Shown here: one piece after another, positions 38,800 through 61,458 of the stretch
Numbering within the stretch: position 1 is the stretch's first letter
Layout: the number at the start of each line of letters is the position of its first letter
Assembly (NCBI RefSeq): GCF_037055325.1
Contig: NZ_CP146373.1
Location: forward strand, 1,984,001 to 2,048,000
Direction: 5' to 3'
DNA: 64,000 nt
Source of the DNA: Arachnia propionica
GTDB taxonomy: Bacteria > Actinomycetota > Actinomycetes > Propionibacteriales > Propionibacteriaceae
Notes under the pieces: generated by a model
What the model was told of the DNA's origin: nothing
Seen by the model: only the letters and a program-made list of their open reading frames with translations
The model's database searches: none
Position numbers and translations under genes: made by a program

Positions 38800-39069
38800 A
38801 TGTATAATAGCACAGGCCTAGTTGACGATCAGTTCAACGCCCTCTACGAGTGCCTCAAGGCGGCAATACGCAACAGTCTTAAACAAGACAGAAAAACCGG
38901 TGCAGATTCCGACAGTTCTAGGTATCATAGGGGCACTCGACAGGTACCCAAGGACACCGCCCTCCTGATCGACGGTACGCTCCTGCCCTGCTGGAGATGG
39001 AAAGCCGAGAAGACCATCTTCTCAGGCAAGCACCGCCACAGTGGCGTCAACGTCCAGAGCCGTCACTGA
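38800..39069 (+). CDS. IS5-like transposase, N-terminal frame
   Basis: An 89-residue frame containing the first part of a DDE_Tnp_4-type domain: LIDGTLLPCW (first catalytic Asp) and FSGKHRHSGVNVQ. It ends in SRH after overlapping the second frame by 28 bases. Some IS5-family groups (IS427) make transposase from two overlapping frames by frameshifting, but no slippery run is visible here, so decay is equally possible. The N-terminus looks shortened. Confidence 0.7.
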   Translation: MYNSTGLVDDQFNALYECLKAAIRNSLKQDRKTGADSDSSRYHRGTRQVPKDTALLIDGTLLPCWRWKAEKTIFSGKHRHSGVNVQSRH

Positions 39070-51512: not shown

Positions 51513-51763
51513 AACCTCACCTCACCAAGCAGGCTCCCGATGCATGACATGTGCGCCGCGTCGCATCTGCCAAGGCCAGACATCCGTTCCATTTCGAGGC
51601 TCCCTTGCCTGTGTGACGCCCGGGATCGGGCACCCGGGCCTCAAGTTTACAGGCAATACCGCAGGAAACCAGCCCATGATGACGGGCACGTCTGCGTGCC
51701 CACGTGGGTGTGGTTGTGCTCCCACACGTGTTTGGGGTGTGGGGGCAGTTGTGGGTTTGTGTG
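51513..51763. other. Intergenic region between FN3K-like gene and 5S rRNA
   Basis: About 250 bases. The segment 51697-51736 has repeated CACGTG and CCCACAC/GTGTGGG motifs that can fold as an imperfect hairpin on the minus strand, a plausible terminator for the rRNA operon. The remainder probably holds the promoter of the FN3K-like gene. I see no gene here. Confidence 0.45.
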
Positions 51764-51881
51764 TCCGGCGGCGTCTTACTCTCCCACACACTCGCGTGTG
51801 CAGTACCATCAGCGCTGGGAGGCTTAACTTCCGGGTTCGGGATGGGACCGGGTGTTTCCCTCTCGCTATGGCCACCGGAAC
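51764..51881 (-). rRNA. rrf: 5S ribosomal RNA
   Basis: On the minus strand the sequence begins TTCCGGTGGCCATAGCGAGA and contains CCCGGTCCCATCCCGAACCC and the TAAGCCTCCCAGCGC segment, the standard actinobacterial 5S pattern, and ends CGCCGCCGGACA. It is the last gene of the operon. Confidence 0.9.
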
Positions 51882-51926
51882 AAGTCCGTGACACAAAAGA
51901 ATATGTTTTTGTTTGTTGTGGTGTTG

Positions 51927-56878
<4,952 letters not shown>

Positions 56879-57140
56879 CGAAAAAATCAAACACACCCAC
56901 ACCCACACAACAATGCAGACACAGGCACATCCAAAAATTCAACACAGAACCCAATCACCGACAAACCCCCACAACACACACAAACATGCATGCCACAGGA
57001 GCCATCAATCAAAGGAAAAAACAAGAAACAAACCAAGAACAAAAAATCCCTGATCCATCCCCAAAAAATGGCATTGACTTAAAGCACGCTGTTGAGTTCT
57101 CAAACTTCGGAAGCCATCCATGCGGCTGGCGACTCGATCA
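56879..57140 (-). promoter_or_regulatory. rRNA leader with boxA-like antiterminator
   Basis: The transcribed leader between promoter and 16S. The minus-strand TTTGAGAACTCAACAGCGTG at about 57085-57104 is the form common upstream of actinobacterial 16S genes (boxA region). The 56880-57050 part is A/C-rich on the plus strand with no gene. Confidence 0.65.
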
Positions 57141-57449: not shown

Positions 57450-58709
57450 TCAGTCCACTCCGATCTGGATCCCACCGACGGTCCGCCGCCCCCTGCGCAC
57501 GATCGCGCAGCAACCGCCTAGGAGATCGGTCTCCGTCAGACTGAACTCGGGATCGGTGATCTTCTCGTTATTCACGTACGCGCCCCCCTCGAGGACAGCA
57601 CGTCTTGCCGCAGCCTTCGACTCAACGATCCCAGCAATCAGGAAGGCATCCGCCAAAGGAATAGGGAGCTTCACCTCCGGAGCCTTGAGCTCACGCATGA
57701 TTCCCCGGAGAGTTTCCTCCGACAACCCGGATAGCTCACCTCGACCAAACAGAGCCGCGGCAGCAGCCACCGCTCCCTTCCGTTCCTCGACTCCATGCAC
57801 GATGTCGGTGACGTCATCAGCGAGAGCCTTCTGAGCCAGCCGCTTGTGAGGTTCGTTCTCAGTGGCCTTCTCCAGTTCCTCGATCTCCTCACGAGTTCGG
57901 AAACTGAATACTTTCAGGTAATCAACCACCTTCACGTCCTCCGCGTTGAGGAAGAACTGATGGAAGGCATAGGGGCTAGTCAGCTCACGGTCAAGCCAGA
58001 CGGTACCGGACTCGGTCTTGCCGAACTTCGTGCCATCAGCCTTGGTCAGCAGAGGTGTGGCCAGAGCATGCGCCCGCACCTGATCGGACCGACGAAGTAG
58101 TTCAACTCCCGCAGTAATATTCCCCCACTGGTCCGAACCGCCATGTTGCAGGGTGACTCCGTACCGGCGGTACAACTCCCGGTAGTCCATCGACTGGAGA
58201 AGTACGTAAGAGAACTCCGTGTAGCTGATCCCAGAATCCAGCCGACGCGCCACCACGTCGCGAGCGAGCATCCGATTCACGGGAAAGTGCTTCCCGACAT
58301 CGCGCAAGAAATCGAGAACCGACATCCCTGCGGTCCAGTCGAGATTGTTGACCATCACCGCGGCGTTGCCCCCCTCGAAGGAAACGAAACGCTCAGCCTG
58401 GGCACGAATCCGCTCCACCCATCCGGCGACGACCTCCTTGGAGTTCATCACCCGCTCCCCCGTCTCCTTGGGATCACCAATCTGCCCCGTGGCACCACCC
58501 ACCAACAAGTGCGGTTTGTGTCCGGCCTGCTGCAGACGACGGGCGAACAGGAGTTGCACAAGATTTCCCATGTGCAGACTCGGCGCCGTCGGGTCGAAAC
58601 CCACGTAGAACTTGACAGGCCCCTCGTCCATGTGGGCCCCGAGGGCTTCCAGGTCGGTCGAGTGGGCAATCAACCCACGCCAGCAGAGGTCGTCGAGCAA
58701 TGCGTTCAC
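57450..58709 (-). CDS. tyrS: Tyrosyl-tRNA synthetase
   Basis: A 419-residue class I synthetase that charges tRNA-Tyr. The HIGH-like motif is PTAPSLHMGNLVQL, tyrosine pocket residues are in ISYTEFSYVLLQSMDY and HGGSDQWGNI, and the KMSKS-like loop is KFGKT. Residues ~350-419 form the S4-like RNA-binding domain (GIVESKAAARRAVLEGGAYV). Length is standard for bacterial TyrRS. It is divergent from the ArsR-type regulator with 87 bases between them. Confidence 0.95.
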   Translation of the reverse strand: MNALLDDLCWRGLIAHSTDLEALGAHMDEGPVKFYVGFDPTAPSLHMGNLVQLLFARRLQQAGHKPHLLVGGATGQIGDPKETGERVMNSKEVVAGWVERIRAQAERFVSFEGGNAAVMVNNLDWTAGMSVLDFLRDVGKHFPVNRMLARDVVARRLDSGISYTEFSYVLLQSMDYRELYRRYGVTLQHGGSDQWGNITAGVELLRRSDQVRAHALATPLLTKADGTKFGKTESGTVWLDRELTSPYAFHQFFLNAEDVKVVDYLKVFSFRTREEIEELEKATENEPHKRLAQKALADDVTDIVHGVEERKGAVAAAAALFGRGELSGLSEETLRGIMRELKAPEVKLPIPLADAFLIAGIVESKAAARRAVLEGGAYVNNEKITDPEFSLTETDLLGGCCAIVRRGRRTVGGIQIGVD

Positions 58710-58774
58710 GAAGGCAGCCTACTCACGCGCTCGCGCGGATTCATCCCACCCTCCCCAGGATTTGCAATGCAGAT

Positions 58775-58790
58775 ATTCGCATATAAGAAT
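58775..58790. promoter_or_regulatory. Probable SmtB/ArsR operator
   Basis: ATTCGCATATAAGAAT is an imperfect dyad (ATTC...GAAT) directly before the ribosome binding site GGAGG of the ArsR-type gene. Spacing and AT-rich centre resemble zinc-responsive SmtB/ArsR sites. Assigned by position only. Confidence 0.5.
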
Positions 58791-58796
58791 GGAGGC

Positions 58797-59108
58797 ATGT
58801 CAGGCACGGAGGTCGCCGAGTACGAGCCGGTCAGCAGCCTCTTCAAGGCGCTGGCGAATCCGGTGCGTGCTGCCATCGTGCACCTGCTCTCCATCCGAGA
58901 GCACACCGTGGGACAGCTCGTCGAAGACCTCGGGCTGCCCCAACCGCTGGTCTCCCAGCACCTGCGGATACTGCGAGGCGCCCGCGTGGTCGCCACCCGC
59001 AGGCAGGGGCAGGGAGTTTGGTACAGCATCTGCGATCAGCACGTCGCTCACATCCTGGGCGACGCGATGAAACACACCCAGGAGGGGAAACATGACCACG
59101 ACCACTGA
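58797..59108 (+). CDS. ArsR/SmtB-family metal-responsive repressor
   Basis: A 103-residue winged-helix repressor. SSLFKALANPVRAAIVHLLS, HTVGQLVEDLGLPQPLVSQH and LRILRGARVVATRRQGQGVW are the ArsR helix-turn-helix. The tail HILGDAMKHTQEGKHDHDH carries His/Asp in the alpha-5 region typical of Zn(II)-sensing SmtB/ZiaR-type proteins, whereas the alpha-3 CxC of arsenic or cadmium sensors is absent. ATG 58797 follows GGAGG. It overlaps the metallothionein-like gene, so it probably autoregulates the pair in response to zinc. Confidence 0.85.
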   Translation: MSGTEVAEYEPVSSLFKALANPVRAAIVHLLSIREHTVGQLVEDLGLPQPLVSQHLRILRGARVVATRRQGQGVWYSICDQHVAHILGDAMKHTQEGKHDHDH

Positions 59109-59418
59109 ACACATCGCCGCCGAGGCCCACAAGCACACCCACGGCCCGAACTGCGGTCACGAGGCCGTGATCCACTTCGATCACGTCGACTATATCCACG
59201 ACGGTCACGCGCACCGCGAGCACGATGGCCACTACGACGAGTGCACCACCTGCACCTGCGGAAACTGCTCCGACACCTGTGCCACCTGCACCTGCGAAAA
59301 CTGCACCTGCGAAAACTGCTCTCACAACACCTGCTCCTGCGGGTCCTGCAGCTGCGCATCCTGCGCCTCCTGCGTCTGCAAGGACTGCACCTGCCCGACC
59401 TGCCGTCACGCAGCCTGA
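59092..59418 (+). CDS. Cys/His-rich metallothionein-like protein
   Basis: A 108-residue protein overlapping the SmtB-like gene by 17 bases. The N-terminal half is His/Asp-rich (KHTHGPNCGHEAVIHFDHVD, HDGHAHREHDGHYDE), a form seen in small actinobacterial zinc-associated proteins. The C-terminal ~60 residues hold 20 Cys in C-x-C and C-x2-C arrays (CTTCTCGNC, CENCTCENC, CSCGSCSCASC, CKDCTCPTC). It should bind several Zn or Cu ions in the cytosol as a store or detoxifier. No signal peptide or membrane segment. I do not recognise it as a known metallothionein family, and the pairing of a His-rich head with a Cys-rich tail is unusual. Confidence 0.85.
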   Translation: MTTTTEHIAAEAHKHTHGPNCGHEAVIHFDHVDYIHDGHAHREHDGHYDECTTCTCGNCSDTCATCTCENCTCENCSHNTCSCGSCSCASCASCVCKDCTCPTCRHAA

Positions 59419-59474
59419 GTGCAAAAACTTCTGGGGCCCCCGAACCGGTTCGGGGGCCCCAGAAGTTTTTGCAC
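59419..59474. terminator. Perfect 56-bp palindrome, bidirectional terminator
   Basis: Two 28-base arms with no unpaired centre: GTGCAAAAACTTCTGGGGCC then CCCGAACC and its exact complement. A-run and T-run on either side give a U-tract in both directions. It starts at the base after the metallothionein-like stop and lies downstream of argH on the other strand, ending both transcripts. Confidence 0.9.

Positions 59475-59556: not shown

Positions 59557-61458
<1,902 letters not shown>

Follow-up and report, generated by a model that had tools for sequence, protein, structure and literature searches.

SmtA, the metallothionein of Synechococcus, has 9 Cys and 11 zinc ligands, and MymT of Mycobacterium tuberculosis is a short, one-part protein. 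According to a 2020 paper, in which only two bacterial metallothioneins are credited with an investigated biological function, SmtA binds four zinc ions and MymT is crucial for copper detoxification (PMC7387436). That paper also describes a His-rich metallothionein, from Pseudomonas fluorescens Q2-87 (PMC7387436), and units of a repressor and a metallothionein are already known in cyanobacteria (PMC8790569). In SmtA/SmtB, BmtA/BxmR and NmtA/AzuR, an alpha5 ArsR/SmtB repressor is combined with a metallothionein, with an inverted repeat at the promoter, and the locus described here, with its alpha5 repressor gene, metallothionein-like gene and promoter dyad, is of a similar kind. It differs in its layout, as smtB and smtA form a divergon and azuR is described as lying apart from nmtA (PMC8790569), whereas the two genes here overlap.

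The locus lies in a window of 64,000 nucleotides from Arachnia propionica (contig NZ_CP146373.1 of GCF_037055325.1, positions 1,984,001 to 2,048,000), in a genome that is a complete single contig of 3.3 Mb. An SmtB-type ArsR repressor of 103 residues with a His-rich C-terminus (KHDHDH) is encoded on the plus strand at 58797..59108, followed on the same strand by a single-copy gene for a metallothionein-like hybrid protein of 108 residues with 21 Cys and 14 His (59092..59418). A recount upheld the coordinates, length and Cys number given in an earlier note on this DNA, but not its figure of more than fifteen His, a slight overstatement. The 17-base overlap that it had reported between the two reading frames was also found, and was identical in 22 of 40 homologous repressor-hybrid pairs (L064 and L077 counted after a correction of +39 bases, because their matches start inside the gene). 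A ribosome-binding-site-like sequence, AGGAGGGG, can be read at 59080..59087 within the end of smtB, and a terminator-like hairpin with a 26-bp stem, a T run at its end and an A run opposite (59419..59474, −53.4 kcal/mol, z −11.2) follows the hybrid gene. The pair is flanked by genes for tyrosyl-tRNA synthetase (57450-58709) and argininosuccinate lyase (59557-60957), both on the minus strand. An rRNA operon (16S, 23S, 5S) is also present in the window, at 51763-56881 on the minus strand. We consider it likely that these two genes constitute a zinc-buffering operon, the hybrid acting as a zinc-derepressed, zinc-buffering metallothionein; the metal-buffering function that the earlier note had assigned to the operon is thus one that we also infer from the sequence.

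By its profile scores, the product of 58797-59108 belongs to the ArsR/SmtB metalloregulators (PF01022, 54.9 bits with a cut-off of 22; PF12840, 38.7 with a cut-off of 27; NF033788, 87.6 with a cut-off of 55). The motif DxHx10HxxE, which we take to be a zinc-type alpha5 site, was present in its last helix and in 39 of the 40 repressors encoded directly upstream of homologous hybrids. The site is similar to the alpha5 site described for AzuR and SmtB (PMC8790569). The exception was L071 (Rothia aeria), where the ArsR reading frame upstream of the hybrid is truncated, which may reflect a pseudogene or a sequencing error. If the main ligand were another metal (Cd, Pb or Cu), the operon would be a toxic-metal defence; Cys-rich tails bind Cd and Cu well, some ArsR relatives sense Cd or Pb, and the repressor scored 49 bits against the CmtR model. 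The copper protein MymT also comes from this phylum (PMC7387436). The CmtR score is, however, far under the cut-off of 150, and we regard this possibility as improbable. The presumably zinc-type alpha5 site, the znu/zur-type neighbours of the hybrid and the presence of its His-rich module on zinc permeases, described below, also argue against it.

The two halves of the hybrid differ in composition. Residues 1-50 (59092..59241), the His-rich module, contain 12 of the His, and residues 51-108 (59242..59415), the Cys-rich tail, contain two His and 20 Cys, arranged in a first unit of 10 Cys and one His and a second unit of nine Cys (ten in the window) and one His. Among 53,900 stretches of 58 residues from the open frames of the window, the best elsewhere had 11 Cys as compared with the 20 of the tail. 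The next Cys-richest stretch, with at most 11 Cys per 58 residues, is on the minus strand, at a reverse-complement offset of about 38920-38993. Nineteen of the 20 tail Cys were Cys in all 40 members of an alignment of the family (A2), while Cys88 was found in two of the 40. The two-unit, 19-Cys tail pattern, with Phe tolerated at one Cys, fitted 79 of 80 homologous loci, and L077 carries a five-residue deletion. The window protein is small and Cys-rich with repeated CxC and CxxC, the sequence features of the metallothionein class.

We found no match to PF02069, the model of SmtA-type metallothioneins, for the window protein or any of the 40 members (E ≤ 1), or anywhere in its own genome (E ≤ 10), and none of the 40 members matched any Pfam or NCBIfam model at E ≤ 1. 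A search of solved structures with the hybrid gave chance-level matches only (best E 0.21), and AlphaFold run on A2 gave no confident structure (mean pLDDT 51.5). Thus, in contrast to SmtA, the hybrid has no PF02069 match, carries a ZnuB-type module and has twice the Cys. With the metallothionein of P. fluorescens Q2-87, compared by description only, it shares a His-rich character and an extra segment; the Q2-87 protein is described as having an SmtA-like fold, a disordered tail as its extra segment and no adjacent metal-responsive regulator (PMC7387436), whereas the fused module of the hybrid forms a conserved domain at the N-terminus that also occurs on ZnuB. MymT, also compared by description only, is like the hybrid an actinobacterial Cys-rich metallothionein, but one with a role in copper detoxification (PMC7387436).

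In five pairwise comparisons, the nonsynonymous/synonymous ratio was 0.15-0.49 over the whole hybrid gene; residues 1-50 gave 0-0.13, and the Cys-rich tail, where the non-Cys positions evolve fast, gave 0.19-0.93. By these ratios, the hybrid gene is under purifying selection. Its codons are repetitive and a long antisense frame overlaps it, as might be expected if the open reading frame were a chance or artefactual Cys/His-rich frame; this idea, to which we give practically no credence, is refuted by the occurrence of homologous genes at 80 loci in many genera, by the purifying selection and by the complete single-contig genome. An assembly artefact, which the earlier note had named as a possible origin of the Cys-rich tail, is refuted, as the hybrid is present at all 80 loci.

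Residues 1-50 matched the C-terminal tails of ZnuB permeases (e.g. L048 and L049, E 8e-16 to 1e-14), and a pattern, HGPxCGH...HxDHVDYxHDGHxH..H.GHYDE, was common to hybrids, ZnuB tails and small proteins. By sequence, the His-rich half is therefore homologous to the ZnuB tail, an identity that the earlier reading had missed, along with the spread of the family through Actinomycetota. Since ZnuB permeases are zinc permeases, this homology points to a zinc-linked operon. In other actinobacteria, the module was found as a ZnuB tail or in small single- or tandem-module proteins, with several of the tandem type in genomes of 7.8-9.7 Mb; all of these carry the same module as the hybrid without the metallothionein-like Cys units. 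Behind ArsR genes, we observed the module alone (L013), twice (L054 and four of 14 tandem loci), with one Cys unit (L217) and with two units. As all of these forms follow ArsR genes, their series suggests that the hybrid was built up stepwise. In one member of the window's genus (G011), an alpha5 ArsR gene is followed by a module-only protein. In plasmids (three records) and phages (two records), matches were confined to the His-rich module, and no relative of the hybrid was found in viral contigs. The phage-labelled records with module matches, MT837699.1 and MT836058.1, are unannotated and come from human faeces. On the Citricoccus plasmid NZ_CP133844.1 (L245, 2950-3105), a single-module protein of 51 residues is annotated as 'zinc transporter permease', a label that is probably a misnomer.

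The homologue search that the earlier note had proposed was performed as a contig scan of a species-level genome collection, and gave 489 pattern matches and 392 relatives at E ≤ 1e-3, from which the best 80 were analysed; the other 312 may include ZnuB tails. All of the best 80 carry both the His-rich and the Cys-rich half, in agreement with the two-part design noted earlier. Among the matches listed, the closest named relatives were from [Pseudopropionibacterium] massiliense, at 91% identity, and from Arachnia propionica, at 81% and 75%. The 80 loci included Arachnia, Cutibacterium, Acidipropionibacterium, Actinomyces, Trueperella, Rothia, Mobiluncus, Alloscardovia, Nocardioides, Aeromicrobium, Dietzia, Streptomyces, Kutzneria, Kibdelosporangium, Lentzea, Pseudonocardia and Nocardia, so that the family ranges from Propionibacteriaceae to Pseudonocardiaceae and is spread through Actinomycetota. 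An even sampling of the phylum (396 genomes, its own included) gave 19 matches at E ≤ 1e-12, corresponding to three hybrids (its own, G037 and, with a single Cys unit, G293), 14 tandem-module proteins and two ZnuB tails, of which one was assigned from its position only. With three hybrids in this sample, the hybrid is scattered, not universal, in Actinomycetota. No literature on the family was found among openly licensed PMC papers, as judged from titles and the start of abstracts. Within the literature searched, both the family and its spread among actinobacteria are new, as are its sharing of a module with ZnuB and, in the hybrid-bearing clade described below, the decay of the ZnuB tail. Genera such as Arachnia, Actinomyces, Rothia, Cutibacterium and Nocardioides thus harbour a family without a Pfam or NCBIfam match among 40 members, and its repressor, dyad and zinc context are visible.

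To determine gene neighbourhoods, the 80 loci, some of which are short stretches, were translated in six frames and searched with phmmer. Pfam supported the assignment of the queries to FUR, DUF1980, ABC ATPase, ABC-3 permease and class II tRNA synthetase, and the finer names Zur, ZnuC and GlyRS are our reading of them. The compact pair of an SmtB-type repressor and a metallothionein-like gene, as the earlier note had described it, recurred at half of the loci, with 40 of 80 hybrids directly behind an ArsR/SmtB gene. Twelve hybrids were located upstream of an ArsR-Fur pair of smtB-zur type, with a DUF1980 gene present, 11 of them also near a class II tRNA synthetase gene, read as glyS; three were beside a convergent ArsR gene, and two (L095 and L137) lay between znuB-type and fur-type genes, the latter read as zur. 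At L074 and L084 the order was znuC-znuB-ArsR-hybrid-fur. At 23 of the 80 loci, none of the sought regulators or transporters was present in the stretch examined. The loci with the smtB-zur order were L088, L100, L101, L106, L107, L111, L113, L116, L117, L120, L123 and L132, in several Pseudonocardiaceae, whereas the smtB-zur operon has been reported only in Mycobacterium, Nocardia, Saccharothrix and Corynebacterium diphtheriae (PMC7174638). L106 is labelled Rhodococcus rhodnii, in a genome of 12.4 Mb, with a Kibdelosporangium-like locus, and the assembly is probably mislabelled.

The hybrids between znuB-type and zur-type genes make induction by zinc scarcity thinkable. The module would then take the zinc imported by ZnuABC and the Cys tail would bank it, giving the protein its main role in storage and delivery, with control shared with Zur. 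The module common to the hybrid and ZnuB tails, the gene orders at L095, L137, L074 and L084, and the co-regulation of mycobacterial smtB-zur by SmtB and Zur (PMC7174638) would fit such a role. We nevertheless consider it unlikely, as in the commonest arrangement (40 of 80) the hybrid follows an alpha5 SmtB-type gene, known relatives of which respond to an excess of zinc by derepression, and L137 itself has upstream, with two mismatches, a site related to the promoter dyad.

This dyad, an operator candidate at 58765..58800, was also claimed in the earlier note and gained comparative support. It spans about 36 bp, with its axis at an ATAT (58781-58784) in the −10 region, arms that extend to CATGC...GCATG and the smtB start codon inside the right arm. 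For SmtB/ArsR operators, the published consensus is a 12-2-12 inverted repeat. Among 34 non-identical promoters out of 41 (six without the core pattern that sets the register and one duplicate were excluded), cross-axis pairing averaged 8.5 of 16 positions as compared with 4.46 (SD 0.75) after permutation, a significant excess that none of 5000 column permutations reached. Leaving out the start-codon and −35 positions, 6.0 of 12 pairs were retained against 3.32, and on omitting the TATAAA positions as well, 4.29 of nine against 2.64. With 14 pairs considered, the mean was 7.8, and it fell to 3.0-4.6 when the axis was shifted by 1-3 bases. The window's own copy is imperfect (8 of 16 pairs), the best being that of L085 (14 of 16).

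A related 15-base site was found upstream, within about 150 bases, at 24 of 79 loci, as compared with three matches in 745,453 other bases; the pattern was first spotted by eye and picked after viewing these loci, and is not independent of them. Ten of the 24 sites precede an ArsR gene and 14 precede hybrid genes without a directly upstream repressor, while 55 of the 79 loci had no related site at up to two mismatches. When dyads in general were sought upstream of those hybrid genes that lack an adjacent repressor, the results were mostly no better than for shuffles. In its own genome, the sole perfect match to an extended pattern was at 58767-58790, in this operon, with five other places at three mismatches as compared with one for a reversed control pattern. 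From this distribution, the SmtB of the window would mainly serve its own operon.

These observations are explained most economically by a two-part buffer that is derepressed by zinc. At low free zinc, an SmtB dimer on the promoter dyad would silence both genes; as cytosolic zinc rises, the alpha5 site would be filled and SmtB released, so that the overlapping genes would be expressed together. The two Cys units of the tail would bind metal in thiolate clusters, and a more labile first site, formed by the His-rich module at the N-terminus, could take zinc and pass it onward. Because SmtA holds four zinc ions with 11 ligands, as compared with two Cys units here, we would guess at a load of up to about eight zinc ions for the tail. 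Such a buffer would set free zinc quickly while exporters respond. The linkage to the repressor, the conserved dyad, the homology of the module to ZnuB, the conservation of the tail Cys and the znu/zur-type linkage support the operon; the 23 of 80 loci without the sought neighbours and the 55 of 79 without a related site stand against it. Three CDF exporter genes are present in its own genome, the top one lying behind another ArsR gene, which lacks the alpha5 motif, and the operon is therefore not the sole answer to excess zinc.

In its own genome, ZnuB stops before the tail, of which a degenerate remnant ending in GDHYDEH is found in another frame (L141, 2326-2458), downstream of znuB, where its last codons run into the beginning of the next fur-type gene. 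We searched 39 congeneric genomes. The ZnuB tail was decayed in all nine with a two-unit hybrid (frame-broken in G000, G004, G017 and G212, the core altered in the other five) and in frame in all 26 hybrid-free congeners, G016 having one altered core stretch; G011 was counted as hybrid-free though it carries the module-only protein, and several hybrid-free genomes are incomplete. The tail was intact in G001 and G008, which have one-unit hybrids, and G013 (no match) and G007 were left unclassified. In the ZnuB tree, in which the frame-broken row of G017 is unreliable, one branch (100/99) separated the seven analysable two-unit genomes from the other 28. As this branch is single, the decay was probably one event, followed by later separate decay. 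These patterns suggest, without proving it, that the hybrid replaced the ZnuB tail in trans in the window's clade.

Elsewhere, the ZnuB alignment covered the whole tail in four of 37 distinct hybrid genomes: three from Nocardioides, in which the tails were read, and that of Actinopolymorpha, judged by alignment coverage alone. The 37 genomes correspond to 40 entries, three genomes being duplicated, and five of the 40 had no ZnuB over the cut-off; in the remaining entries the ZnuB alignment stopped short of the query end, and three that were read had no tail, absence not being proven for the others. Strict mutual exclusion of the hybrid and the ZnuB tail was rejected as a rule, given that G001, G008 and these four genomes keep both.

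A wider idea, which we regard as rather doubtful, is that the His-rich module works as an exchangeable port for zinc intake and that the freed hybrid does in trans what the ZnuB tail did in cis. The port would have been cut loose and fused to metallothionein clusters, and the soluble hybrid would take zinc at or near the importer and then store it. If so, the loss of the ZnuB tail would follow the gain of the hybrid, and bacteria would have a direct hand-over from import to storage; the module shared with ZnuB makes such a link between zinc import and storage testable. In G017 (L180) and G212 (L199), znuB itself looks damaged, with its N-terminal part not found or a change of frame.
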